DNA from: Mycobacteriales bacterium
GTDB lineage: Bacteria > Actinomycetota > Actinomycetes > JAFAQI01 > DASSKL01
Reading direction: 5' to 3'
NCBI GenBank assembly: GCA_035690485.1
Contig: DASSKL010000071.1
Location: 1 to 64,000, forward strand
DNA: 64,000 bases
Below, in pieces: positions 799 to 41,731 of the stretch. Under the pieces are notes generated by a model, which saw only the letters and a program-made list of their open reading frames with translations, had not been told where the DNA came from and made no database searches. A program made the translations under genes and the position numbers. The number at the start of each line of letters is the position of its first letter. Positions within the stretch are counted from its first letter, which is position 1.

Positions 799-1953
799 TC
801 AGGCGGGCGACGTCGTGGAGGCCGTGGGCTGCGGCGTGACCGGGCGGCCGGGTCGAATCGCGGACCAGCCGCGCCGGCGCTGGAACGGCAACTCGAACAC
901 CTCGGCGAAGAGGCGGGCGAACGCGACGGTCAGCGGCACGATGACGGCGCACAGTACCAGGAACGTCGACCCACCGGTGCCGACGTGACCCTGCATCATC
1001 CCGAAGTAGGCGGCGATGACGATCGGCATGTGGGTCAGGTAGAGGCTGTAGGAGAAGCCGCCCAGGCTGCGCAGGGGGCGCAGGTCGAGGAGGCGCACGA
1101 ACCACGCCGCCGGGATGCTGGCCACCGCCACGAGGAAGCAGCCGATCGCCGGCCCCAGAGCCAGATCCACCCAGAACAGATGCGTGTTCGTCCAGACCGC
1201 GCCCCTGACCGCGATCAGGACGAGCACCGGCGCGACCAGGGCGACTGAGCTCACGCCCCACACCCCTCGCCCCCGACCCTTTGCAGTGCCGACGAGGCTC
1301 GCGGCGACGACACCGACGGCGAACAGCACCGCCAGGTCGGGGGTGTACTGGTCCACCAGCCCTTGCGCGGCTCCCACGTGCGCGGCTGCGCAGCCACCCA
1401 GCGCGAACACCGGCACTCCGACGATCGCCAGCGGCGCCGCGCGGTTGACGCGGCGCACCGCCAGGACGAGGAGGGGGAGTACGACGTACAGCTGGGCCTC
1501 GATCGCGATGGACCAGAACGCCCGGTTGGGACTCGGCGCCGGGACCGCGTCCTGCACCAGGAGCGCGTTGGCGATCACCGACTTTCCGGTCGGGCGCGGC
1601 CAGCCCGGCTGGGCGACCACCATCCAGGTCATCAGCAGGCTGAAGGCGAGGGCCGCCCAGTAGGGCGGGAGGATCCGCCACGCCCGGCGCCGCGCGAAGG
1701 CCGCGACCCCGCCCAGGCGCCACCCGTGCCGCGCCGGTGACAGCGACAGCGAGAAGCCCGACAGCACGATGAAGACCACGACAGCGAAACGACCGTAGAT
1801 GAAGCCGGCAGCCCACGGTGGGGCACGGTCGGCGGGATAGCCGGGGAACGCGCGCAGGAAGATGTGGTTCACCACGACGAACAGCGCGGCCAGCCCTCGG
1901 ATGCCGTCGAGCCCCGCGAGCCGCCGCTCGCCCGCGGCGACCGCGGCGGTCAC
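799..1953 (-). CDS. Acyltransferase 3 (OafA/YrhL family)
   Basis: A polytopic membrane O-acyltransferase of about 384 residues. The family signature is at the N-terminus (LDGIRGLAAL with the Arg, then the conserved His in VVVNHIF), followed by about ten hydrophobic segments. Such enzymes move acetyl or other acyl groups from cytoplasmic acyl-CoA onto sugars or lipids at the membrane. The GTG start overlaps the stop of the upstream ribA-like gene (GTGA), so the two are translationally coupled. It is the last gene of the six-gene minus-strand operon, where it probably acylates the final product. A much longer frame is open upstream, but it only shadows ribA. Confidence 0.85.
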   Translation of the reverse strand: MTAAVAAGERRLAGLDGIRGLAALFVVVNHIFLRAFPGYPADRAPPWAAGFIYGRFAVVVFIVLSGFSLSLSPARHGWRLGGVAAFARRRAWRILPPYWAALAFSLLMTWMVVAQPGWPRPTGKSVIANALLVQDAVPAPSPNRAFWSIAIEAQLYVVLPLLVLAVRRVNRAAPLAIVGVPVFALGGCAAAHVGAAQGLVDQYTPDLAVLFAVGVVAASLVGTAKGRGRGVWGVSSVALVAPVLVLIAVRGAVWTNTHLFWVDLALGPAIGCFLVAVASIPAAWFVRLLDLRPLRSLGGFSYSLYLTHMPIVIAAYFGMMQGHVGTGGSTFLVLCAVIVPLTVAFARLFAEVFELPFQRRRGWSAIRPGRPVTPQPTASTTSPA

Positions 1954-2627
1954 GACGAAGCCTGCGAGGGGCAGGCAACGTCTGCATCGGTGCAGTGCGA
2001 GAGCCCACGCAGGGTGTGTGCACCGCGGCGCGCCTTCGTCAGCAGGTAGGCCGCGTTGACGGCCGACAGGTGCACGGCTGTCGACACCAGTTCGGTCACG
2101 ACGACGCCGTGCGCAGTGAGCTGTGAGGCCTTGTCGGGGTTGTTGCTCAGCAGCGCGATGCGCTGCACGTCGAGCGCCTGCAGCATCTGCGCGGCGACCG
2201 TGTAGTCGCGCTCGTCGGCGTGGCGGCCCAGCGCGAGGTTGGCCTGGTAGGTGTCGAGGCCGCAGTCCTGCAGCGCGTAGGCGTCCAGCTTGTCGTAGAG
2301 GCCGATGCCGCGACCTTCCTGTCGCAGGTAGAGCAGGTAGCCGCCGTGCCCGGAGATGCGTTCGACCGCTTCGCGAAGCTGCGCCCCGCAGTCGCACCGC
2401 TGGCTGCCGAACACGTCGCCGGTGACGCACTCGCTATGAGGTCGGACCAGGGGCGGGGTGCTGCCGTCCGGGTCGAATGCGCCCAGCGCGAGAGCGAAGT
2501 GCGGCTGCTGATCGGCCAGGCCGTTGAACGTCACCATGTCTGCGGTCGTGGTGTAGCCGTCGGCGAAGCGCAGCGGCACCGAGATCCGCCGGCGCACCGA
2601 GGCGCGGGACCGCGCGGCCGGCTTCAC
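1950..2627 (-). CDS. ribA: GTP cyclohydrolase II (RibA family), stand-alone
   Basis: A 225-residue enzyme that opens GTP to the 2,5-diamino-6-ribosylamino-pyrimidinone phosphate that starts riboflavin synthesis. The zinc ligands are visible (Cys of HSEC and both Cys of RCDCG), as is the core RQEGRGIGL motif. The Tyr of DAYALQD matches the catalytic Tyr105 of E. coli RibA. Some Streptomyces paralogues have lost this Tyr and stop at a formylated product, so normal chemistry is expected here. It lacks the DHBP-synthase (RibB) domain often fused to RibA, and no other riboflavin genes are near except a lone reductase. The GTG start overlaps the reductase stop (GTGA). Its lipid-enzyme neighbours suggest a specialised pathway rather than bulk riboflavin. 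Confidence 0.9.
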   Translation of the reverse strand: MKPAARSRASVRRRISVPLRFADGYTTTADMVTFNGLADQQPHFALALGAFDPDGSTPPLVRPHSECVTGDVFGSQRCDCGAQLREAVERISGHGGYLLYLRQEGRGIGLYDKLDAYALQDCGLDTYQANLALGRHADERDYTVAAQMLQALDVQRIALLSNNPDKASQLTAHGVVVTELVSTAVHLSAVNAAYLLTKARRGAHTLRGLSHCTDADVACPSQASS

Positions 2628-3328
2628 CGGCCCGCCCGTTCCGCCTCGAAGCGTGACGACAGCGCGTAGCGGGTGAGCACGACGTCGCCCACCTGGCGGA
2701 CCTCGGCTAGCTCGGCCCGGCGGTCGACCGTCCACGGGAAGCAGCCGTCGAGCACGAACCGGCGCGCCCGCGAGTCGCCGACGAAGAACGGCGCGATCAC
2801 GAGCTGCAGCTCGTCGGCCAGCCCGGTGGTGAGGAACTGCGTGTGCAAGGTGGCACCGCCCTCGACCATCAACCGATTGACCCCGCGTGCGCTGAGGTCC
2901 TCGCTGATCAGCCGCATGTCGAGCGACTCGCCGAGGTCGATCACGGTGGCTACCGCACCCAGCCGTGCGGCGATCCGGGCCGCTGCCGCGTTGCTGCAGT
3001 AGACGTACTTGTCGGCGTCGTCCGTGGCGAAGAAGTGGGCGCAGGGGTCGAGGTGCCCGGAGGAGGTGACCGTCACCTTGACGGGGGTCGGCGGGTCGCC
3101 GCGCTCGATCCGGTCCCGCCGACGTGCGGGGGAGCGCACGAGCAGCCGCGGGTTGTCGTTGCGCAGGGTCGTCGCGCCGACCATGATCGCGTCGCAACCG
3201 GCCCGGACGCCGTCGACGCGATCGAGGTCGGCGTCGTTGGACAGCACCAGCCGCCGGACGTCCGGGCTGTCCAGGTAACCGTCGAGCGACATGCTGGCGC
3301 TGAGCAGTGTGTACGGACGGTCAGCCAC
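2624..3328 (-). CDS. RibD C-terminal-type pyrimidine reductase
   Basis: A 234-residue protein of the RibD_C/dihydrofolate-reductase fold. It should reduce the ribosyl side chain of the RibA product to ribityl using NADPH. Family features are the start (TLLSASMSLDGYLD), the nucleotide-site segment (DAIMVGATTLRNDNPRL) and the MVEGGATLHTQFL motif. The deaminase domain of bifunctional bacterial RibD is absent, so the product would be the diamino-ribityl compound, as in archaeal and fungal order, unless a deaminase is supplied elsewhere. The GTG start has a good ribosome site (AAGGAGG) and overlaps the upstream stop by eight bases. It is coupled to ribA downstream (GTGA). Confidence 0.85.
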   Translation of the reverse strand: MADRPYTLLSASMSLDGYLDSPDVRRLVLSNDADLDRVDGVRAGCDAIMVGATTLRNDNPRLLVRSPARRRDRIERGDPPTPVKVTVTSSGHLDPCAHFFATDDADKYVYCSNAAAARIAARLGAVATVIDLGESLDMRLISEDLSARGVNRLMVEGGATLHTQFLTTGLADELQLVIAPFFVGDSRARRFVLDGCFPWTVDRRAELAEVRQVGDVVLTRYALSSRFEAERAGR

Positions 3329-4310
3329 CGTTGCCTCCTTCCAGCGAGCGGGCGATTGCGAGCTGCGGCGGCGTGCCGGCGGGATGGGGCGGCACCCGCC
3401 GGCGGGCCGCCGTCCGCGACATCTCCGCGACCAGCACGGCGGCTCCGGGCGACACCGAAGCGAGCGCCAGCACGCCGTACAGCGTCGTGATTGCGACCCC
3501 GGTCGCGGCACCGAGACCGGCAGCGGCGAACGCCCAGGCCGCGGCCCCTTCGCGTGGTCCCCAGCCCGCGATGCCGAGCGGCGCCGATGTCGCCAGCTGC
3601 ACCAGGATCGCCAGCGGCAGCAGTGTGCTGACGGAAGCAGACGCCCCGGCCGCGTGCGCGGCGATGAGGAAGACCGTGGTGTGCCCGGCCACCACGACGA
3701 GCGAGGCCAGTGCGACCTCGAGCCGGATGCCGCGGGCGAGCGGACCCGCGCGCAGGTCTGCGGTCACGGCACGGACTGCACGTGCGACGCGGCCGGCGGG
3801 CATCCGCGCGGCCAGCACCGCCACGGCAGCGGCGACTGCTGCGGCGGCACCGAGGACGAGGAGGGCGGCCGGGACGGCGGCGCGCACGGGCGAGGGCAGC
3901 GCGGCCAGCACGACGATCGCGACGGCCGCCTGCACCAGCTGTCCGGCGGTGCGTTCCCAGGCGACCGCCCGCAGGCCGCCGCCGACACTGCCCACGTCGC
4001 GCCCGTGCACCACACCGCGGTGCACGTCACCGACGATGCCTCCCGGCAGCACCAGGTTGAGCAGCTGCGAGCGGTAGTAGGCCGCGACGGCGACCGGCAG
4101 GGGGAGCCGCACCCCGAGGCCGTGCGCCACCAGCGTCCAGCGCCAGGCGGCACAGGTCGTCGTCAGCGCGGTGATGACGACGGATGCAGCGAGGGTCGTC
4201 GGCGTCATCGCGCGCAGACCGTGCGCGAACGGCGACGGCCCGATCCGCGCGACGACCGCGACGAGCACGGCCATCCCGATCACGAGCCGCAGCGCGCGCC
4301 CCCGGCTCAT
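3321..4310 (-). CDS. LPG-synthase-type transmembrane protein (flippase-like)
   Basis: A 329-residue polytopic membrane protein with about eight hydrophobic segments. It resembles the transmembrane half of lysylphosphatidylglycerol synthase (MprF) and the YbhN/UPF0104 family: see the YYRSQLLNLVLPGGIVGDVHRG segment and the APLGIAGWGPREGAAAWAF segment. The aminoacyl-transferase half of MprF is missing. Related stand-alone proteins are thought to flip or hold lipid-linked products. The ATG overlaps the methyltransferase stop (ATGA). In this operon it is a natural candidate for moving a lipid-linked product across the membrane; that role is inferred. Confidence 0.75.
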   Translation of the reverse strand: MSRGRALRLVIGMAVLVAVVARIGPSPFAHGLRAMTPTTLAASVVITALTTTCAAWRWTLVAHGLGVRLPLPVAVAAYYRSQLLNLVLPGGIVGDVHRGVVHGRDVGSVGGGLRAVAWERTAGQLVQAAVAIVVLAALPSPVRAAVPAALLVLGAAAAVAAAVAVLAARMPAGRVARAVRAVTADLRAGPLARGIRLEVALASLVVVAGHTTVFLIAAHAAGASASVSTLLPLAILVQLATSAPLGIAGWGPREGAAAWAFAAAGLGAATGVAITTLYGVLALASVSPGAAVLVAEMSRTAARRRVPPHPAGTPPQLAIARSLEGGNGG

Positions 4311-5098
4311 GCGTGCGCCACCTTCTCGGCCACCAGCGCGAACTTGCGGACGCGCCCGTCGCGCAACCAGTCACGCCACAGCCGGTGCGACGTGAGCAGG
4401 TCGTGGAGGCAGTCACGACCGAGCTGGGCGGCGATTGCGTGGGCATCCGCGCGGAACGCGTCGTGGAGAGCCGCAGCGGTGGACCGATGGGCCTGCGTGC
4501 ACTCGGTCTGCCAGGTCACCCGCAACCCGGCCCGATCGAGGGACGACAGGAGATCCGGCAGCGCGACCGGCCACACGGTGCCGGACGCGGGCATGCGCGA
4601 TCGCTCCGCTGCGGTCAGCGGGGGTCCTTCCTCCGCGGTGACGGCGAGACGCCCGCCCACGTCGAGGACGGCGGCGACCTGCTGCAGCAGCGACTCCTTG
4701 TCGGCGAAGGCGAGCAGCGTCTCCAGCATGAGGACGACGTCGTAGGGGCCACGGGGGATGGGCGGCACCCGGGCGACCTCGAAGCGGCAGTCCAGATCCA
4801 GGGCCCGTTGGCGCGCGACGCCGATCGCTTCGGCGTCCTCGTCGATCCCCACGTAGCTGCAGCCCAGCTCTCGGCTGATCAGCAGCCCGGGGCCACCGAC
4901 ACCGCAGCAGAGGTCCAGGACGGCCACTCCTGGTGCAACCCCAGCCCGGGCGGCCAGCTGCAGGATCTCGGTCGCCCCCATGAAGCTCTCCTGGCCGACG
5001 AACTCACCCGGCGCGAAGGCCGACAGGCGCGCCTGCAGCAGTGCGCGGTCGTAGTGCGCCCGCCCGTTGACCCGTCGCGGCTGCCGGACCACGTTCAC
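4307..5098 (-). CDS. Class I SAM-dependent methyltransferase
   Basis: A 263-residue Rossmann-fold methyltransferase. Motif I (VLDLCCGVGGPGLL) lies near residues 51-64, an acidic motif II follows (YVGIDED), and motif IV is around YDVVLMLETLLAF. The layout is UbiE/sarcosine-methyltransferase-like, and the substrate is unknown. The GTG start overlaps the stop of the upstream CDP-alcohol transferase gene (GTGA), and its own stop overlaps the next ATG, so it sits in the middle of a coupled operon. The plus-strand half of the cluster has a second methyltransferase, so the product probably carries at least two methyl groups or needs one on a lipid and one on the heterocycle. Confidence 0.85.
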   Translation of the reverse strand: MNVVRQPRRVNGRAHYDRALLQARLSAFAPGEFVGQESFMGATEILQLAARAGVAPGVAVLDLCCGVGGPGLLISRELGCSYVGIDEDAEAIGVARQRALDLDCRFEVARVPPIPRGPYDVVLMLETLLAFADKESLLQQVAAVLDVGGRLAVTAEEGPPLTAAERSRMPASGTVWPVALPDLLSSLDRAGLRVTWQTECTQAHRSTAAALHDAFRADAHAIAAQLGRDCLHDLLTSHRLWRDWLRDGRVRKFALVAEKVAHA

Positions 5099-7446
5099 GG
5101 CTGGGCCACGATCGGTGCTGTTGGTGCCGCACTGAACGCGCGCAGGAAACGGTTGCGGAAGGCATCCATCCGCCAGACCGGTGCATGCGCGTTCGGCAGC
5201 AGTCCGGGCTGCCACCGCCAAGCTGCGATGCGCGCGAGCACCTGGGGATCGCGGGCGATGATCGAGACCGGGACGTCGTGTCCGGCCCTCGCGCCGCTGA
5301 CGACGGTGGCCGGCTGATGGTCGCCCAGCACGATGAGCACGAGGTTGTCGTCGTGGACGTTCTGCAGGAACGAATCCAGGGCGTGCAGTGAGTACTGCAC
5401 GGACTCGCCGTACGCCGCCTGCACCTGCGCCCCGTCGCGCCAGACGGCCGACGGCTGTTCGCCCTGCGCCGGCATCGGGTCGTAGACGCTGCCGTCGCCG
5501 AGGCGCTGCCACGGGACGATGCGCGGCAGCGGTGCCCACGGCGTGTGGCTGGACACCAGGTCGATCTCCGCCATCACGGGTCGGCGGTGCGCCGGAGCGA
5601 GCTCCCGCCGGGCGAACGCCGCCAGGGTGTACTGGTCGGGGATCTTCGCGTAGCTGAAGCTCGGGCCCCGGTAGCCGACGTCGTTGCTGCCGTACAACGC
5701 GTCGAAGTCGTACAGGTGCTGACCCTCTGGCCACGGCGGGCGGCTCGACGGGATGTCCACGACTGTGCGCCAGCCGCCTCGTTTGAACAGCTTGCTGAGC
5801 GTCTCCCGGTTGCTCGCTGCCAGCTGGTCGTAGCGCTGCTGGCTGTCGATCCACAGTCCGGACTGCAGGGTGGAGTGCGCCAGCCAGCTGATGCCGCCGA
5901 ACGTCGGTGAGGTGAGGAACGCGCTGCGGGCGCCGTAGCCCACGGCCTGCAGCTCCCGGGTGCTCGACCGCAGCACCGCATCGACTGGTGCGGAGAACGA
6001 CGAGCCCTCGACCGCGACCCGGCCGTAGCTCTCGACGAACACCAGGAGCACGTCCTTGCCCCGCAGGCCGGTGAGCAGTGCGCTACCTGCTGTGCCGGCG
6101 TACGGGTCGGTGGCCGCGATCTGTTCGGTGAAGGCGTGCTGGTCCTCGACGGCCGTCCGCGCCCGATCGACCTCGCTGGTCAACGTTCCCGCCGCCGAGG
6201 TCGAGGCGAGCGGCGCACCGCCTCCGGCCGTGACCCCGAGTGCGATGCACAGCGTCCAGACGACGGCCAGCGTCGTGACCGTCGGAATCGCGGTGGGCCG
6301 GTGCCGGGCCGCGAGCGCCGCAACCCGCAGGGTCGCCAGCGTGATGACGGCGGCGAGCGCGACCATGGCGCATCCCGCTGCCACGAGGTAGAGGACCGCT
6401 CGGACCCGGCCGACCGAGTCGCTCAGCACCCCGATCGCGGGCCCGAAGCTGCTCCAGTCGGTGACCGGGTTGAACGGCCGGTCGAGGACGGTGAAGAACC
6501 CGAGGTCCAGGATCCGGATCAGGGTCAGCCCGCTGAGTGCCACGCCGGCGACCCCGGCGATGAGCCGTCGGGGTCGAGGCGGTACGGCGACTGCGACGGC
6601 GACGAGCAGCAGCCCCTCGACGGGCACCCGCAGGAACGCCCCGGGGGTCAGCTCGGTCAGGTGATCGGGCACTACGAGCGCGGCCCAGACCACGAGCACG
6701 GCGACGACGGCGACCACCCTGCGGATGGCCGGGCGCAGCCCCGACGGCGCCGGCGGTGCCGGCCGGTGCCGGTGCAGCCACCAGACGTCGCGGCCGAACG
6801 ACTCGAGCAGCAACGCGAGCGCGACGGCCACGGCGACCCGGCCCCACACGGCGGGCAGCAGCGTCGCCGCGGCAACGGTGAGGACGATTCCCTGGATCGC
6901 GGCGACCGACTTCCGCCACTGCCGCGGCGGCAGCGCGGCGCGCAGCCAGGGCGCCGGCCGGCCCGCGACGAGGAAGGCGTAGCGCATCAGCCCGATGGCG
7001 AGCACCCACGGAGCCAGCGACTGCGCGACCTCGACGCTGAGGGCCAGGATCAGGAAGGCGTCGACCTCCCCGTCGAACCGTGCGCCGACCGCCGACGCCG
7101 TCGCGGTGCGACGAGCGATCCATCCGTCCACCGCGTCCAGGGCGATGACGAGCGAGGCCAGCGTGACGATCGCCGCGGTCGGCGCCGGCCGGCTGAGGCC
7201 CGTCGTGACCAGCGCGGCCACGGCGCCGGCCAGGATCGAGCGCCCCAGAGTCACCAGGTTCGCCGGGCCCAGCCGATCGGCGCCGGCTCGGAGCAGGCCG
7301 CGGTGCAGCAGCCCCGCGGTGACCGCTGCGCCGGCAACGCCGACGCCCCAGCCAGCGGCCGTCAACCCGACCACGCCGTCGAGCAGCCCGAGCAGCGCGA
7401 GCGCCGCGGCGAGACCGGTGAGCAGGGCTGATTGAACCGCGCGCAC
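5095..7446 (-). CDS. CDP-alcohol phosphatidyltransferase fused to sulfatase-type phosphotransferase
   Basis: A 783-residue two-part membrane protein. Residues about 15-230 form a CDP-alcohol phosphotransferase with the complete family motif DGxxAR-x8-G-x3-D-x3-D at residues 107-129. This catalyses transfer of a phospho-alcohol from a CDP-activated donor. A second bundle of hydrophobic helices follows (about 245-410). From about residue 465 comes an alkaline-phosphatase/sulfatase-superfamily domain (LLVFVESYG, SHTPW, LGDHQP) like those of phosphoglycerol and phosphoethanolamine transferases. It is probably extracytoplasmic. The GTG at 7446 has a GGAGG site five bases away and opens the minus-strand operon. 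A fusion of head-group attachment with head-group transfer in one chain is unusual. Confidence 0.8.
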   Translation of the reverse strand: MRAVQSALLTGLAAALALLGLLDGVVGLTAAGWGVGVAGAAVTAGLLHRGLLRAGADRLGPANLVTLGRSILAGAVAALVTTGLSRPAPTAAIVTLASLVIALDAVDGWIARRTATASAVGARFDGEVDAFLILALSVEVAQSLAPWVLAIGLMRYAFLVAGRPAPWLRAALPPRQWRKSVAAIQGIVLTVAAATLLPAVWGRVAVAVALALLLESFGRDVWWLHRHRPAPPAPSGLRPAIRRVVAVVAVLVVWAALVVPDHLTELTPGAFLRVPVEGLLLVAVAVAVPPRPRRLIAGVAGVALSGLTLIRILDLGFFTVLDRPFNPVTDWSSFGPAIGVLSDSVGRVRAVLYLVAAGCAMVALAAVITLATLRVAALAARHRPTAIPTVTTLAVVWTLCIALGVTAGGGAPLASTSAAGTLTSEVDRARTAVEDQHAFTEQIAATDPYAGTAGSALLTGLRGKDVLLVFVESYGRVAVEGSSFSAPVDAVLRSSTRELQAVGYGARSAFLTSPTFGGISWLAHSTLQSGLWIDSQQRYDQLAASNRETLSKLFKRGGWRTVVDIPSSRPPWPEGQHLYDFDALYGSNDVGYRGPSFSYAKIPDQYTLAAFARRELAPAHRRPVMAEIDLVSSHTPWAPLPRIVPWQRLGDGSVYDPMPAQGEQPSAVWRDGAQVQAAYGESVQYSLHALDSFLQNVHDDNLVLIVLGDHQPATVVSGARAGHDVPVSIIARDPQVLARIAAWRWQPGLLPNAHAPVWRMDAFRNRFLRAFSAAPTAPIVAQP

Positions 7447-7528
7447 TCCCGCCTCCGTGTCTAGGCCGCAACGCTGTGCACGCGAGCGTCGGCGAGACGG
7501 TTCAACGCCCCGCAGAAACGAGGTCGAG
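7447..7528. promoter_or_regulatory. Divergent promoter region between the two halves of the pterin/lipid cluster
   Basis: An 82-base gap separates the minus-strand operon of six genes from the plus-strand operon of four, so it must hold both promoters. Apart from the GGAGG ribosome site of the minus gene I cannot pick out convincing -35/-10 boxes or an operator. The shared control region is inferred from the layout alone. Confidence 0.45.
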
Positions 7529-8506
7529 GTGGATGAGGCCCGGGCGTTCTGGGTGCGCGAGCCCGGTACCGGTGAGATCCGCGCGGCGCGACTGCCTGCG
7601 CTCGGGCAGGGTGACGTCCGCGTGCGCACGCTCTGGTCCGCAGTCAGCCGCGGGACGGAGGCGCTGGTCTTCCGCGGCGGCGTGCCGGCGAGCCAGTACG
7701 CCGCGATGCGCGCGCCGTTCCAGGACGGCGAGCTGCCCGGCCCCGTGAAGTACGGCTATCTCAACGTCGGCGTCGTCGAGGAGGGGTCGACGGCGCTGCG
7801 GGGACGCCGCGTCTTCTGCCTCTACCCGCATCAGACGTCGTACGTCGTCCCGGCCGGATCCGTGATCGTCGTGCCCGACGACGTCCCGTCGCGTCGTGCG
7901 GTGCTTGCCGGAACGGTCGAGACGGCGGTCAACGCGCTGTGGGACGCCGCGCCGCTGCTGGGTGACCGGATCGCCGTGGTCGGCGCCGGGATGGTCGGCT
8001 GCTGCGTGGCGCGGCTGCTCGCGCAGTTTCCGGGCATCGACGTCACCCTCGTCGACGTCGACCCGCAACGCGCGCAGGTCGCCGAGGCGCTCGGGGTTGC
8101 GTTCGCCGTGCCGTCAGCGGCGCCGCGGGGGCGCGACCTGGTCGTGCACGCCAGCGCGACGTCCGCCGGTCTGCAGCTGTCGCTGGACCTGCTCGCATTC
8201 GAGGGCACGGTCGTCGACCTCAGCTGGTACGGCGACACCGAGGTCACCCTGTCGCTCGGCGGTGCCTTCCACTCGGGCCGGCTCGCCATCAGGGCCAGCC
8301 AGGTCGGTCGCGTGGCGCCGGGCCGCCGGGCCAGCCGGACCGGTGCGGATCGGCTCGCGCTCGCCCTCGACCTGCTGCGCGACGGCGCGTTCGATGCCCT
8401 GCTGACCGGCTCGTCGAAGTTCGAGGAGCTGCCCGACGTGATGGTCGGGCTGGCCACCGGTGCGCTGCCGGCGCTGTGTCACACGATCAGCTACGACGAG
8501 GGGTGA
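7529..8506 (+). CDS. Zinc-less MDR dehydrogenase, BchC-like
   Basis: A 325-residue medium-chain dehydrogenase/reductase. The N-terminal catalytic domain has the SRGTEALVFRGG and PVKYGYLNVG segments that recall bacteriochlorophyllide dehydrogenase (BchC) and its relatives. An NAD(P)-binding fold follows (AVVGAGMVGCCVARLL, then acidic VDVD). The four-Cys structural zinc loop of classic alcohol dehydrogenases is missing, as often in this branch. It probably oxidises or reduces an alcohol on the cluster product. The GTG at 7529 was chosen because the reading frame upstream runs into the promoter gap. It is first in the plus-strand operon and three bases before the PTPS-like gene. Confidence 0.8.
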   Translation: MDEARAFWVREPGTGEIRAARLPALGQGDVRVRTLWSAVSRGTEALVFRGGVPASQYAAMRAPFQDGELPGPVKYGYLNVGVVEEGSTALRGRRVFCLYPHQTSYVVPAGSVIVVPDDVPSRRAVLAGTVETAVNALWDAAPLLGDRIAVVGAGMVGCCVARLLAQFPGIDVTLVDVDPQRAQVAEALGVAFAVPSAAPRGRDLVVHASATSAGLQLSLDLLAFEGTVVDLSWYGDTEVTLSLGGAFHSGRLAIRASQVGRVAPGRRASRTGADRLALALDLLRDGAFDALLTGSSKFEELPDVMVGLATGALPALCHTISYDEG

Positions 8507-8509
8507 GGC

Positions 8510-8908
8510 GTGTTCAGCGTGACGGTCCGCGACCACATGATGGTCGCTCACAGCCTGCGCGGAGAGGTCTTCGGCCCGGCGCAGCGGTTGCACGGCGCGA
8601 CGTACGTCGTCGACGTCACCTTCCGCCGGCAGGCGCTCGATGCCGACGGCGTGGTCGTCGACATCGCCGCTGCGGCCGCGCAGGTCGGAGAGGTCATCGC
8701 GGAGCTCACCTATCGCAACCTCGACGGCGAGCCGACGCTGGCCGGTGTCAACACGACGACCGAGGTGTTGGCGCAGGTGGTCGCCGACCGGCTCGCGCAG
8801 CGGATCCATGACGGGCGGCTCGGTGCGACCGCGCTGGGGCTCGGGGAGATCCACGTCACGCTGCACGAGTCGCACATCGCCTGGGCCAGCTACGAGCGGT
8901 CGCTGTGA
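8510..8908 (+). CDS. 6-pyruvoyl-tetrahydropterin synthase / QueD family protein, divergent
   Basis: A 132-residue T-fold protein. PTPS and QueD enzymes remodel the side chain of dihydroneopterin triphosphate using a zinc held by three His. Here His14 and His28 are present, but the family HGH reads HGA, so the third ligand is Ala30. The catalytic Cys and the His of the family LDH motif (here LTYRNLD) are also absent, while the late Glu (LHES) remains. It may bind a pterin or pyrimidine with altered chemistry, or none. The stop overlaps the GTG of the glycosyltransferase (GTGA). Family placement is good, the reaction is unknown. Confidence 0.75.
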
Positions 8909-9972
8909 CGTCCCTGCACGTCGTCGTCCCGGACGGTGTCGACGACCCGACGCGGCCCAGCGGTGGCAACGTCTACGACCGTGAGATCTGCGACGGGTTG
9001 GCGGCGGCCGGGTGGTCGGTCCACGAGCACCCGGTGCCCGGGGCGTGGCCGTGCCCGGACGGTGCTGCCACGGCGGCTTTGGCCGACGTCGTCGGCGCGA
9101 TCCCGGACGGCGCCACGGTGCTCGTCGACGGCCTGATCGGCTCGACCGTGCCGGGCGTCCTTGCGGCTGCCGCCACCCGGTTGCGTCTCGTCGTGCTCGT
9201 CCACATGCCGTTGGGGGACGGGCCGCCGGGCCACCGGGTCCGCGACGCCCGCGACCGCGAGCGAGACGTGCTGCGCGCTGCGGCAGCCGTCATCACGACC
9301 AGCGCCTGGACACGCGAGAAGTTGCTCTCCGACTACGCGCTGGCGGTCGATCGCGTGCACGTCGCCGAACCCGGAACGCGACCTGCCGCGCCGGCCCCGG
9401 GCACCGCCGCCGGCGGGCGGCTGCTCTGCGTCGCCGCGGTCACCCGGCAGAAGGGCCACGACCTGCTGCTCGCGGCACTGGCCGGGATCCGCGACCTTTC
9501 CTGGCACTGCGACGTCGTCGGCAGCCTGGAGCGGGAGCCCGGCTTCGTGGCGGCGCTGCGCCGGCAGGCCGAGGCGCTGCACGTCGGCGACCGCGTCGCC
9601 TTCCGGGGGACCCAGGTTCGCGACCGCCTCGACAGCGCCTACGCCGCCGCCGACGTGCTGGTCCTGCCGTCGCGTGCGGAGACGTTCGGCATGGTCGTCA
9701 GCGAGGCGCTCGCGCGTGGGCTGCCGGTGATCGCGACCGGTGTCGGAGGAGTGCCCGGTGCGCTGGGCCGCGCCCCGGACGGCCGGCCACCGGGGCTCCT
9801 CGTCCGCCCGGCCGACCAGCAGGCTCTGGCCGCTGCCTTGCGCGGCTGGCTCTCGGACGCCGAGCTGCGCGCGCGGCTGCGACGAGCCGCCGCACAGCGC
9901 CGCCCGATGTTGCCGCGGTGGTCGGCGACGGTCGACTGTGTCGTCCGGGTCCTGGCGGCGGTGGCGGCGTGA
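8905..9972 (+). CDS. GT4-family glycosyltransferase
   Basis: A 355-residue GT-B retaining glycosyltransferase. The C-terminal half shows the GT4 pattern: [14 protein letters not shown], then [29 protein letters not shown] with the conserved Glu residues of the E-x7-E donor site. The N-terminal half has a Gly-rich acceptor loop ([11 protein letters not shown]). It should move a sugar from a nucleotide donor onto a lipid or small molecule at the inner membrane face. It is coupled by GTGA overlaps to both neighbours, so it belongs to the heterocycle/lipid pathway. The sugar and acceptor cannot be told from sequence. Confidence 0.85.
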
Positions 9973-10790
9973 GCGACGCAGTGGGGGTGGTGAGCCCGGC
10001 GTGGCTGGACCTCCGGGAGCGGGCCGACGCCTCCGCCCGCGATCCGGCTCTGGTCGACGCGCTCCGCCACCAGCTGCCTGGCGGTGCCCCGCTGGTGGCC
10101 CATGACCTGGGGTGCGGGAGTGGCGCCATGACGCGCTGGCTCGCGCCGCAGCTCGCCGGCCCCCAGCACTGGGTGCTCCACGACCGCGATGCCACGCTGC
10201 TTCGGCTCGCCGCAGCTGTGGCCGTGCGGTCAGCGGATGGCGCCGCCGTCACCGTCGAGACCCGGCTCGAAGACCTCACCGACTTCGATGCCCACGACCT
10301 GGCCGGTGCCTCGCTCGTCACTGCCTCGGCGCTGCTGGACGTGCTCACCGTCGAGCAGGTGCGGCGCGTCGTGTCCGTGAGCACGGCGGCCGGCTGCCCA
10401 GCCCTGATCACGCTCACGGTGGTCGGACGCGTCGAATTCACTCCGGCCGACCCGTCCGACGCGGCGCTCACGTGCGCGTTCAACGCCCACCAACGACGAA
10501 CGGTCGACGGGCACCGGCTGCTCGGCCCGGACGCGATCGCGTTCACGACCGCGGCATTCACCCACGCTGGAGCCGCGGTGCTGGTCCGGCCGAGCTGCTG
10601 GCGTCTCGACGCGTCACACCAGGACCTGCTGGGTGAGTGGCTCGCCGGCTGGATCGACGCGGCGTGCGAGCAGGAGCCCGGACTCGCGCCGGTCGCTCGC
10701 GCCTACGCCCGGCGTCGCGCCGCCGAGTTGGCCCGCGGCGACCTGCGAGTCGTGGTGCACCACCGGGACCTGCTCGCACTTCCGCCCTAG
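9969..10790 (+). CDS. SAM-dependent methyltransferase
   Basis: A 273-residue class I methyltransferase with motif I DLGCGSGAMTRWL near residues 38-50 and an acidic motif II (VLHDRD). The middle reads like the small-molecule methyltransferases that follow glycosyltransferases in polysaccharide and glycolipid clusters. The GTG start overlaps the glycosyltransferase stop (GTGA). A longer open frame upstream only shadows that gene. It is last in the plus-strand operon, and its TAG stop forms a shared CTAG with the convergent gene on the other strand, leaving no room for a terminator between them. Confidence 0.8.
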   Translation: MSDAVGVVSPAWLDLRERADASARDPALVDALRHQLPGGAPLVAHDLGCGSGAMTRWLAPQLAGPQHWVLHDRDATLLRLAAAVAVRSADGAAVTVETRLEDLTDFDAHDLAGASLVTASALLDVLTVEQVRRVVSVSTAAGCPALITLTVVGRVEFTPADPSDAALTCAFNAHQRRTVDGHRLLGPDAIAFTTAAFTHAGAAVLVRPSCWRLDASHQDLLGEWLAGWIDAACEQEPGLAPVARAYARRRAAELARGDLRVVVHHRDLLALPP

Positions 10791-11047
10791 ACGAGCCCCG
10801 GTGGCGCCGCGTCCAGGAGGGCGAGGATGCCCAGTGCGAGCCGCCGCGCGTCGTGCGGGTCGAGCTCGACGGCGACCCGCGCAGAGGGCCCCCGGTCGGG
10901 ATTGCGGAAGTCGATGTTGAGCGTGTGCGTCGCCGGAGCGGACACGGGGTGGTCCAGGTAGAGCATGGCGTCGGACAGCGGGAACCAGCCCGTCGCTCCC
11001 TTGCCGGCGCCGCTGATCGCTACGTGCGTCGTCTCGTAGGTGCACAT
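10787..11047 (-). CDS. DUF6295-type small protein
   Basis: An 86-residue protein starting MCTYETTHVAISGAGKGA with WFPLSDAMLYLDHP and HTLNIDFRNP segments. This matches a small actinobacterial family of unknown function that I recall as DUF6295. It has no signal peptide or membrane segment. It starts eight bases after the dienelactone hydrolase gene, so the two are very likely one transcript. The TAG stop is shared on opposite strands with the methyltransferase stop through a CTAG palindrome. Confidence 0.75.
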   Translation of the reverse strand: MCTYETTHVAISGAGKGATGWFPLSDAMLYLDHPVSAPATHTLNIDFRNPDRGPSARVAVELDPHDARRLALGILALLDAAPPGLV

Positions 11048-11055
11048 GAGAGCTC

Positions 11056-11799
11056 TCACGCAGCCAGGTGTCGGCCGAAGAACTGCCAGATCTTCTGCCA
11101 TCCGTCGGCGGCCGCCTCCGGTCGGTAGCTCGGCCGGTCGGTGGAGAAGAACGCGTGACCCGCGTCGTCGTAGGTGTGGAACTCGAACTCCTTGCCCGCG
11201 GCCGCGAGCGCTTGCCGCAGGACCTCGGTCTCCTCCGGAGTCGGGTAGCTGTCGTCGGCCCCGAAGAGTCCGAGCAGCGGGCAGCGCAGCTCGGGCGCCA
11301 GGTCGACGATCGGCTCCGCGCGCAGCGGCATGCCCTCCGGTGGCCGGGCGACGAGGAACGCGCCGTAGCAGTCGACGGCCGCGTCGAGCGGCAGGCTGCA
11401 GGCGGCGAGAAACGACTGGCGACCGCCGGAGCAGTAGCCGATCGTCGCGACCTTGCCGTTCGACGCCGGCAGCGATCGAAGGTAGTCGACGGCGGCACCG
11501 ACGTCTCCGATCAACCGATCGTCCGGCACCCCGCCCACGGCGCGCGCTGCCGCCGCCGCGTCGTCCGGGTCTGCACCGGGCGCCTCTCGGCTGTAGAGGT
11601 TCGGGCACAGCGCGAGGTAGCCGTGTGCGGCGAACTTGCGGGTGATCTCCTTCGTCCCCTCGTCATATCCGGGCATGTGATGAATGACGACCACGGCGCC
11701 GTAGCGGCCCTCGGCCAGCGGTTCCGCGAGATAGGCCTCCACGGGATCGCCGCCGTGGCCGGTCAGCGTGATGGTGTGGGCCCGTAGATCAGCACTCAT
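11056..11799 (-). CDS. Dienelactone hydrolase family protein
   Basis: A 247-residue alpha/beta hydrolase. The family triad is visible: Cys in GYCSGGR, Asp in FGADDSYP and His in DDAGHAFF, with the VVVIHHMPGYD oxyanion region near residues 35-45. Classic members open dienelactone in aromatic breakdown, but actinobacterial homologues often hydrolyse other esters and lactones. The ATG was chosen for its GAGGAG ribosome site; an upstream in-frame start would only add an Arg-rich tail. It forms a pair with the DUF6295 gene. Confidence 0.85.
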   Translation of the reverse strand: MSADLRAHTITLTGHGGDPVEAYLAEPLAEGRYGAVVVIHHMPGYDEGTKEITRKFAAHGYLALCPNLYSREAPGADPDDAAAAARAVGGVPDDRLIGDVGAAVDYLRSLPASNGKVATIGYCSGGRQSFLAACSLPLDAAVDCYGAFLVARPPEGMPLRAEPIVDLAPELRCPLLGLFGADDSYPTPEETEVLRQALAAAGKEFEFHTYDDAGHAFFSTDRPSYRPEAAADGWQKIWQFFGRHLAA

Positions 11800-13527: not shown

Positions 13528-15888
<2,361 letters not shown>

Positions 15889-38975: not shown

Positions 38976-39139
38976 GTCCGGAACCCCTAACCTGACGCGG
39001 GCTTCAGGTGAAGGTAGGGGAACCGTCACCATCGCGCCAGGGAGGTCATTTCGGCCGATGGCCGGCGACCGGCCCGCCGATCCGGCGTATGGTCCAATCA
39101 GTATCTGAGACCTACGTCACATACCTCGTGGAGGGCCGT
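38976..39139. promoter_or_regulatory. Divergent gap between secreted-protein operon and BVMO-esterase gene
   Basis: A 164-base gap with promoters for both sides. It has an inverted pair CCCCTA (38984-38989) and TAGGGG (39015-39020) near the minus gene, a possible operator or hairpin. A GAGGG ribosome site precedes the plus-strand GTG. I cannot assign promoter boxes with confidence. Confidence 0.35.
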
Positions 39140-41731
39140 GTGATCCCGCAGCAAAACGACAACCGGACGCCCGATTTCGACGCCGTGGTGGTGGGGGCAG
39201 GGTTCTCCGGGCTCTATCTCCTGCACCGGCTGCGCACGCTCGGCTTCTCGGTGCGGGTCTTCGACGGCGCGGGCGACGTGGGCGGCACGTGGTACTGGAA
39301 CCGCTACCCCGGGGCTCGCTGCGACATCCCGACGACCGACTACACCTACAGCTTCGACCCGGAGCTCGAGGATGCCTGGCAGTGGTCGGAGAAGTACGCC
39401 ACCCAGCCAGAGATCCTCCGCTACCTGGGCTTCGTCGCGGACCGCTACGACCTGCGCCGCGACATCCAGTTCAACACGCGCATCGAGTCGGCCACGTGGG
39501 ACGACGCGGCATCGCTCTGGCGGCTCACGACCGACCAGGGCAAGCACGTCACCTGCCGCTTCTACGTCATGGCCACGGGCTGCCTGTCGCTGCCGAAGGA
39601 AGTCGACATCGAGGGTGCCCCGTCGTTCGCAGGCGAGGTCTACTACACCGGTCGATGGCCGCACGAGCCGGTCGACTTCACCGGCAAGCGGGTGGCCGTC
39701 ATCGGCACCGGCTCCTCGGGCATCCAGTCGATCCCGCTCATCGCGCAGCAGGCCGCACAGCTGACGGTGTTCCAGCGCACCCCCAACTTCTCTGTCCCGG
39801 CGCACAACGGCCCACAGCCGGCCGACCGCGTCGCTCAGATCAAGGCCGACCGGGCCGCCTACCGCGACGCCGCGAAGTGGTCACGTGGAGGCATCCCGAC
39901 CGAGATCAGCGAGGTCAGCGGCCTGACCGCGCCCGACGACGTGGCGCGGGCCCGTTTCGACGAGGCGATCGCGCGCGGGGAGCTGTTCGCGATCCTGGGC
40001 GTCTTCAACGACCAGGGCGTGCACCTGCAGTCCAACGAGCGGGTCGCCGAGATGATCCGCGAGCGCATCCGCTCGATCGTAAAGGACCCGGAGACGGCCG
40101 AGACGCTGTGTCCCAAGGACCACCCCTTCGGCACCAAGCGGCCGTGTCTCGACACCAACTACTTCGAGACCTACAACCTGCCGCACGTGCGGCTGGTCGA
40201 TCTGCGCAAGCACCCGATCAGCAAGATCACCCCGACCGGCATCGACACCGTCGACGAGTCGTTGGAGTTCGACGCGATCGTCTACGCCACGGGCTTCGAC
40301 GCGATGACCGGCCCGATCGTCGCGGTCGACATCACCGGGCGCGACGGCGTGACCCTCAAGGAGAAGTGGGCCGACGGCCCGTCGACCTACCTCGGCCTCA
40401 CGACCGTCGGCTTCCCGAACTTCTTCGCCATCACGGGCCCCGGCAGCCCTTCGGTGCTGTCCAACATGGCGGTCTCGATCGAGCAGCACGTCGACTGGGT
40501 CTCCGACGCCATCGCCTACCTGCGCGACCACCAGTTCACGACGATCGAGCCGACGCCGGGTGCAGAGGCCGGGTGGAACCAGCACAACGCCGACTGCGCG
40601 GCGATCACGCTGCACCCGACCGCCAACTCCTGGTACATGGGCGCCAACGTCCCGGGCAAGCCGCGCGTCTTCTACCCCTACATCGGCGGGGTCGACGCCT
40701 ACCGCGGGGCCTGCGACGAGGTCGCCGCCAAGGACTACCTCGGCTTCAAGCTCACCGGCCCCGCCGGTGAGCAGTGCCACGACGGCGTCGTCCGCCGCGT
40801 CCAGCCCGACGTGCAGCTCGTCCTCGACATGATGGGCATGCTCGGGCTGCCGCCGCTCGAGTCCCTTCCGGTGCCGGACGCCCGCGCGTTCATGGAGCAG
40901 ACCAACGCGATGCGAATGCCCGGGCCCGAGGTCGGCGAGATCGTCGACGGCCAGCTGCCCGGCGCCGCCGGCCCGCTCGACTTCCGGCTGTTCCGGCCGC
41001 CGACCCCCGGCGCGCACCCGGTCGTCGTCTACTTCCACGGCGGTGGCTGGGTGCTCGGCGACCACGTCTCCGACGAGCCGCTGTGCCGCGACCTGTGCGT
41101 GCGCACGGGCGCGGTCGTGGTCTCGGTCAACTACCGGCACGCGCCCGAGGACCGCTTCCCGGCCGCGGCCGACGACGCCTTCGCGGCCGTGCGCTGGGTC
41201 GCCGACAACGCGGTCGAGCTGGGGGGCATCCCCGGGCAGCTCGTGGTCGCCGGCTGGAGCGCCGGGGGCAACGTCGCCGCGGTCGCCTGCCAGCGAGCAC
41301 GCGACGAGGGCGGCCCGGAGATCCTCGGCCAGCTGCTGCTGACGCCGGTCACCGACGAGGACATGACGCGCCCGTCGTACGTCGAGAATGCCGACGGCTA
41401 CGTCCTGACCGCACCGCTGATGCAGTGGTTCTGGGACCACTACGCCGACCCGGCCGATCGCGCCGACCCGGTCGCGTCGCCGCTGCACGGCAAGCTCGAG
41501 GGGCTGCCGCCGGCCGTCATCGTCACGGCCGACTTCGACCCGCTGCGCGACAGCGGTGAGGCCTACGCCCAGGCGCTGTCGGCGGCCGGTGTGCCGGTGC
41601 AGCGCATCAGGGCGCGCGGCCACACGCACACGTCGCTGACCATGGTCGACGTGGTGATCTCCGGGGCGCCGGTGCGCGCCGAGATCGCCGGGGCGCTGCG
41701 GTCGATGCTCAAGGCGCCGGTGCCGGCCTGA
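39140..41731 (+). CDS. Baeyer-Villiger monooxygenase fused to alpha/beta-hydrolase esterase
   Basis: An 863-residue two-enzyme fusion. Residues about 14-545 are a flavin monooxygenase of the cyclohexanone-monooxygenase type: FAD site VVVGAGFSG (16-24), the BVMO motif [15 protein letters not shown] (48-62) and NADP site GTGSSG (189-194). The second BVMO fingerprint (163-174) has Tyr169 where His is standard. Residues about 570-860 are a hormone-sensitive-lipase-type esterase with HGGGW (oxyanion, about 633) and nucleophile GWSAGG (Ser about 707). Oxygen insertion into a ketone followed by hydrolysis of the ester or lactone by the same chain is the evident logic. The GTG follows a GAGGG site. 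Confidence 0.85.

Follow-up and report, generated by a model that had tools for sequence, protein, structure and literature searches.

The ten-gene cluster at positions 799 to 10790 of the window analysed here (the first 64,000 nucleotides of contig DASSKL010000071.1, assembly GCA_035690485.1, from a Mycobacteriales bacterium) is best read as a dedicated GTP-derived pathway, separate from riboflavin, in which a stand-alone GTP cyclohydrolase II (RibA) and a RibD_C reductase are followed by BchC-like and PTPS-like proteins, sugar transfer, methyl transfer and membrane handling of the product; the probability of this reading is put at roughly 60%. The cluster is the type I variant of the SCO6650–SCO6655 cluster of Streptomyces coelicolor with extra envelope enzymes. 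Clusters of this kind exist in two forms with interchangeable starts, which is new here. The two starts, together with an ever-present reductase, fix a probable intermediate and lead to a short list of assays for a pathway that soil actinobacteria retain across hundreds of species, Streptomyces being well represented among them, and that has one protein with a crystal structure. Its end product is most probably either a pyrimidine or a pterin, carrying methyl and sugar groups.

Conservation and Distribution

Of 198 genomes of the class searched with the PTPS-like protein, 30 encode it, and a further search of the species-genome collection gave at least 566 relatives in confirmed stretches. One hundred neighbourhoods were compared, 80 of which are named loci (the best matches, rich in Streptomyces) and 20 of which come from an evenly drawn genome set. 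The PTPS-like and BchC-like genes occur in all 100, the GT4 glycosyltransferase in 99, the CDP-alcohol transferase and the LPG-type membrane protein in 93 each, the methyltransferase MT2 in 90, RibA in 88 and RibD in 32, followed by the outer methyltransferase MT1 (8) and the acyltransferase 3 (AT3; 2). The core adjacencies BchC-PTPS-GT4-MT2-LPG-type are found in 82–100 of these neighbourhoods, and the commonest order (51 of 100) places the CDP-alcohol transferase on the opposite strand to BchC, PTPS, GT4, MT2, LPG-type and RibA. This conserved gene set and order spans many families, and the clustering is far beyond chance. A preliminary description of the window had made its interpretation depend on conservation in other genomes, and the co-occurrence search shows the neighbourhood to be strongly conserved. 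The ten-gene set which it proposed recurs in its core, while MT1 and AT3 are poorly conserved and are local extras.

Some of the compared loci are irregular. One contig labelled as a Burkholderiaceae metagenome-assembled genome (L053) carries a typical actinobacterial cluster and adjoins the window in the core tree; the label is probably a binning error. Loci of Pseudonocardia and Micromonospora (L067, L074) show several partial BchC, GT4 or CDP-alcohol matches, possibly because cluster genes have been split or duplicated there, or because of faults in the assemblies.

Two Interchangeable First Steps

The RibA of the window (1950–2627, minus strand; Pfam, alignment and tree) scores 250.9 bits on NF001591 (cut-off 148), and its alignment to 4rl4 and 2bz0 shows the zinc cysteines and catalytic Tyr as well as a Tyr (Tyr117) at the switch position, the residue also present in 17 of 17 canonical or paralogous RibA proteins checked. 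This position separates the two cluster types without exception: it is Tyr in all 22 loci with a close RibD_C and no creatininase (type I), and Met, His, Gln or Leu in all 66 loci with a readable RibA and a creatininase, but no close RibD_C (type II). In the RibA tree, type I groups with the third Streptomyces RibA paralogue (100/99) and type II with canonical RibBA, while the core-protein tree nests type II within type I. Since the two RibA types are not sisters and type II lies within type I, the first step has been replaced with the rest of the cluster kept, and the number of independent replacement events is small. The shared core proteins are ~40–78% identical to those of the window in both types. 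No creatininase-family hydrolase occurs in the window cluster; one PF02633 protein is encoded on another contig of the genome.

Work by Spoonamore and Bandarian in 2006 is said to have found that SCO6655, with Met120 replacing Tyr, stops at the formyl-pyrimidine. For the subsequent step, a parallel is available in other bacteria, where the creatininase-family protein BrbF is a proven formamidase on the same formyl-diaminopyrimidine intermediate (PMC9478397). Because BrbF deformylates this intermediate, the variant cyclohydrolase together with the creatininase would match a normal cyclohydrolase II in outcome.

An Obligatory Reductase

The RibD_C reductase (2624–3328, minus strand; Pfam, NCBIfam and tree) is without a deaminase domain and belongs to the archaeal-type diaminopyrimidine reductase family. 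Its best NCBIfam model is TIGR01508 (124 bits, below the cut-off of 186, and so a resemblance only), and its closest solved relatives (5xux, 6p8c and 2azn) are diaminopyrimidine reductases. Among the 13 type II genomes examined, 11 hold an orthologue of the window RibD_C elsewhere (47–54% identity, same clade, 100/99) and in the remaining two the cluster itself contains an unrelated RibD_C. The cluster is present in 52 of the 121 Streptomyces genomes screened, and a close RibD_C occurs in 44 of these 52 as against 14 of the 69 genomes lacking the cluster (Fisher p = 7e-13, kinship ignored). For the eight exceptions an alternative RibD_C was predicted, and one was found in all eight within 4 kb of the PTPS gene (controls, 0/8). 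The orthologue is also present in cluster-bearing genomes of Actinomadura, Pseudonocardia, Nocardiopsis, Sciscionella and Amycolatopsis.

The reductase is obligatory for the cluster, in cis or in trans. As it resembles archaeal-type enzymes acting before deamination and co-occurs obligatorily with the cluster, the shared intermediate is probably 2,5-diamino-6-ribitylamino-4(3H)-pyrimidinone 5'-phosphate, which still bears the 2-amino group of guanine, and not riboflavin. The formation of a ribityl-diaminopyrimidine phosphate by RibA and RibD_C, already suggested in the preliminary description, gains independent support from the pattern in which the reductase is complemented.

The third Streptomyces RibA was considered as a feeder of the cluster, a proposal weakened by 6 of the 13 type II genomes, which are without it and yet keep a reductase. 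In L187 and L240 (G018:C1:4234418-4236440) this RibA adjoins a RibD_C, and the pair is sister to the RibA/RibD_C of the window. The partner reductase is also present in some genomes without the cluster, and the pair may serve another pathway.

Core Proteins of the Plus-Strand Operon

The BchC-like dehydrogenase of the medium-chain dehydrogenase/reductase superfamily (7529–8506, plus strand; Pfam and NCBIfam), a core component, carries a conserved S(R/K)GTE where such enzymes usually have a zinc-binding Cys segment, and scores 49 bits on the BchC equivalog model (cut-off 291), for which reason it is termed BchC-like only. The adjoining PTPS-like T-fold protein (8510–8908, plus strand; Pfam and alignment) matches PF01242 at 82 bits and is the orthologue of SCO6650, aligning with PDB 3D7J (“Uncharacterized protein SCO6650”) with E = 6e-74, a much stronger match than any true PTPS gives. 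It shares the T-fold family and the pterin-binding Glu120, invariant in the PTPS-like family, with PTPS and QueD; nevertheless, the catalytic Cys, the Asp-His pair and one zinc His are missing in 18 of 18 aligned members (GPA for GKC, HGA for HGH and (T/N)Y for DH). Canonical PTPS/QueD function is rejected in view of this loss of the active site, so that the earlier PTPS-like label holds for the fold family and not for the catalytic residues. The 3D7J study reportedly described SCO6650 as devoid of zinc and of the catalytic triad, with which the family residues agree (Cys to Ala, HGH to HGA and Asp-His to (Thr/Asn)-Tyr). The operon continues with the GT4 glycosyltransferase (8905–9972, plus strand; Pfam) and MT2, a class I S-adenosylmethionine (SAM) methyltransferase (9969–10790, plus strand; Pfam) whose gene order suggests orthology to SCO6652.

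Membrane and Lipid-Type Proteins

The largest protein of the cluster (5095–7446, minus strand; 783 aa; Pfam, motif, AlphaFold and Foldseek) is a fusion of a CDP-alcohol phosphotransferase with an LtaS/LtaP-like sulfatase-fold domain. Pfam assigns it CDP-OH_P_transf plus a weak Sulfatase match, and no sequence match was found for it among solved structures. Its CDP-alcohol catalytic motif (DAVDGWIAR..G...D...D) is intact, as it is in 92 of 93 relatives. An AlphaFold model of the sulfatase half built from 22 sequences (pLDDT 86) has as its best Foldseek matches 4uop, 4uoo, 4uor and 2w5r (LtaP/LtaS; TM-score ~0.55, 13% identity), which suggests that this half may transfer phospho-alcohol groups outside the membrane instead of acting on sulfate. 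All the families named in the preliminary description were matched by Pfam or NCBIfam models, with the qualification that the sulfatase part resembles LtaS/LtaP by fold.

The LPG_synthase_TM/flippase-like multi-pass membrane protein (3321–4310, minus strand; Pfam, with a weak TIGR00374 match) and the CDP-alcohol transferase are core in Actinomycetes, whereas the accessory class I SAM methyltransferase MT1 (4307–5098, minus strand; Pfam) and the locally accessory AT3 (799–1953, minus strand; Pfam Acyl_transf_3) are not. The lipid half of the preliminary reading is the weaker one: it has the two former proteins as core members but not the two latter, and it is further limited by a distant lineage in which the lipid genes are missing. 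Nothing computed shows a bond between heterocycle and lipid, and a conjugate of the two is only a possibility.

In this lineage (family f50, in another class of the phylum; loci L162–L169 and L173–L176), there is a recurrent order of RibD_C, BchC-like, PTPS-like, GT4 and methyltransferase, preceded by RibA in at least one locus (L174); no CDP-alcohol transferase or membrane protein is encoded within 20 kb. Its PTPS-like protein keeps the HGH motif, the Cys being already lost. Since the heterocycle genes occur here without lipid genes, the heterocycle, sugar and methyl steps seem older than the membrane steps, and the membrane part was apparently added later. The divergent neighbours of these clusters are FolB and a PlsC-type acyltransferase. 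The adjacent FolB was considered as support for a pterin product and dropped, being the sole FolB in 5 of 6 genomes.

Proposed Pathway and Alternative Explanations

In the proposed pathway, RibA would open GTP to 2,5-diamino-6-ribosylamino-pyrimidinone 5'-phosphate, as its family and the Tyr switch residue suggest, and the archaeal-type RibD_C would reduce the ribosyl to a ribityl chain with the 2-amino group kept, as indicated by its family and obligatory co-occurrence. Most Streptomyces carriers, and carriers in several other genera, would instead take the first step with a formate-retaining cyclohydrolase (Tyr replaced) and a creatininase-family formamidase. The BchC-like dehydrogenase and the PTPS-like T-fold protein are predicted to act next on the ribityl scaffold. 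In the preferred chemistry, the BchC-like enzyme would oxidise the 2'-OH of the ribityl chain to the 1'-deoxy-2'-keto intermediate that is formed through rearrangement by GTP cyclohydrolase I; the 5-amino group could then close the ring to 7,8-dihydroneopterin 3'-phosphate, which would suit the PTPS fold as a ligand, without GTP cyclohydrolase I. A more cautious version of the pathway ends with a decorated ribityl pyrimidine. Subsequently, GT4 would add a sugar and MT2 a methyl group, and in Actinomycetes the CDP-alcohol transferase and LPG-type protein may attach a phospho-alcohol and/or carry the product across the membrane. Further decoration in the window might be provided by the LtaS-like domain, MT1 and AT3.

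Carried to its full extent, this scheme would give bacteria another way of making pterins from GTP, one that bypasses GTP cyclohydrolase I (via cyclohydrolase II, ribosyl reductase and a BchC-like 2'-dehydrogenase to dihydroneopterin phosphate). A catalytically re-purposed PTPS protein would process this pterin, leading to a glycosylated and methylated, developmentally timed lipid or surface compound placed in or across the membrane of sporulating actinobacteria; both this extended version and the ring closure itself are judged less likely than not. A number of points weigh against the proposed pathway. The co-occurrence of the reductase partly tracks clades, and the 14 cluster-free Streptomyces genomes with a reductase imply that it also serves something else. 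A divergent partial cluster (L052/G002, BchC-PTPS-GT4 only) is without a close RibD_C. Further, the PTPS-like protein might bind rather than catalyse, the FolB beside the family f50 clusters may represent ordinary folate synthesis, and the ring-closure step is chemistry on paper.

The strongest alternative, itself unlikely, is that the scaffold stays a monocyclic ribityl-diaminopyrimidine, which is glycosylated by GT4 and linked to lipid via its phosphate or the CDP-alcohol transferase, the PTPS-like protein only binding or protecting it. RibA and the reductase yield exactly this compound, and the intact CDP-alcohol motif, the frequency of the membrane protein (93 of 100) and the lost PTPS catalytic residues all fit; however, the invariant BchC-like dehydrogenase and the invariant PTPS fold are left unexplained, and the distant lineage has neither the CDP-alcohol transferase nor the membrane protein. 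Less likely again is a type II product unlike that of type I, with the formyl or ribosyl group kept and the creatininase not acting as a deformylase. This would agree with the scores of the type II creatininase, which reaches only 36 of the 180 bits required by the ArfB model and also falls under the MftE cut-off, and with the usual absence of an in-cluster reductase, the observation that had suggested it. Nevertheless, that absence is explained by a reductase in trans or replaced: all type II genomes tested have a dedicated reductase in trans or an in-cluster replacement. The shared core (~40–78% identical to the window in both types) and the precedent of BrbF deformylation likewise speak against a separate product.

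Riboflavin supply is rejected as the purpose of the cluster: that RibA and RibD_C boost riboflavin or a secreted flavin beside an unrelated, adjoining envelope glycolipid operon is very improbable, even though both are riboflavin families and a separate RibBA for secreted flavins has been proposed in Sinorhizobium (PMC9478397), since open reading frames and Pfam reveal no RibD deaminase, RibE, RibH or RibB in the cluster, the genome holds a separate RibBA/RibD pair, and RibA, present in 88 of 100 neighbourhoods, has been displaced independently by an unrelated version with the rest kept.

Comparison with Known Systems

The SCO6650–SCO6655 locus of S. coelicolor resembles the window in having an orthologous PTPS-like protein adjoining BchC-like, GT4, MT2, LPG-type and CDP-alcohol transferase genes. 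The Streptomyces loci run in the order BchC-like, PTPS-like, GT4, methyltransferase, membrane protein and RibA, with the CDP-alcohol transferase divergent; from this gene order, GT4, MT2, LPG-type and creatininase presumably correspond to SCO6651–SCO6654. The window differs in that its RibA has the Tyr and belongs to the other RibA lineage, RibD_C lies in the cluster, the creatininase is absent, the CDP-alcohol transferase is fused to the LtaS-like domain and MT1 and AT3 are added. In addition, RibA, RibD_C and the membrane protein of the window are located in the divergent operon.

The archaeal enzymes ArfA (GTP cyclohydrolase III), ArfB (formamidase) and ArfC (diaminopyrimidine reductase) follow the same expected series, namely GTP opening, deformylation and ribosyl reduction before deamination, and the ArfC type is closest to the window RibD_C. 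In contrast to the Arf route, the first enzyme of the cluster is a GTP cyclohydrolase II and no riboflavin genes follow. The glycosylated pterins of Chlorobium and cyanobacteria derive from GTP cyclohydrolase I; these systems, which are without CDP-alcohol or membrane genes, are likened to the cluster by function. The pteridine glycosyltransferase of Chlorobium tepidum provides a bacterial precedent for sugar transfer onto a reduced pterin (PMC5683033). The BrbF of Sinorhizobium and Brucella (PMC9478397) is a creatininase-family deformylase that parallels the type II hydrolase by family; it serves riboflavin, while the window cluster is without such a hydrolase.

Literature searches for the locus or its product gave nothing beyond expression data, so that the earlier statement of no characterised product is right for the literature searched, with two homologues studied (SCO6650 by structure and SCO6655 by activity). 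SCO6655 is annotated as GTP cyclohydrolase II and is listed among genes anticorrelated with predicted flux, mostly induced in stationary phase (PMC2853524). SCO6652 ranks with the most strongly induced conserved, functionally unassigned genes in the late mycelium of sporulating S. coelicolor cultures, with log2 values of 4.3 (48 h) and 4.1 (72 h) (PMC3610822). As SCO6652 is the putative methyltransferase gene, this induction suggests that the product may matter for development, and it could plausibly act in development or in the spore envelope.

Gene Layout and Neighbouring Genes

The ten genes, all assigned to families with Pfam and NCBIfam models, form two divergent operons separated by an intergenic region of 82 bp (7447–7528, no strand), with start sites resolved from overlaps and upstream sequence. 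The minus operon runs from 7446 to 799 with junction overlaps of 4, 4, 8, 4 and 4 bp; the plus operon runs from 7529 to 10790, with a 3-bp gap first and overlaps of 4 and 4 bp thereafter. The start sites and junction counts bear out the earlier picture of two back-to-back operons with overlaps of 4 or 8 bp.

Outside the conserved cluster, a DUF6295 gene (10790–11047, minus strand) converges on it, and beyond this lie a dienelactone hydrolase (11059–11799), a cupin/glyoxalase fusion and a TetR regulator. A UvrA-paralogue-like protein of 786 aa (13531–15888, minus strand) combines an ABC ATPase domain with a zinc-finger-like CXXCXGXG stretch, and a 907-aa protein (39008–41728, plus strand) joins a flavin monooxygenase-like part to an alpha/beta hydrolase.

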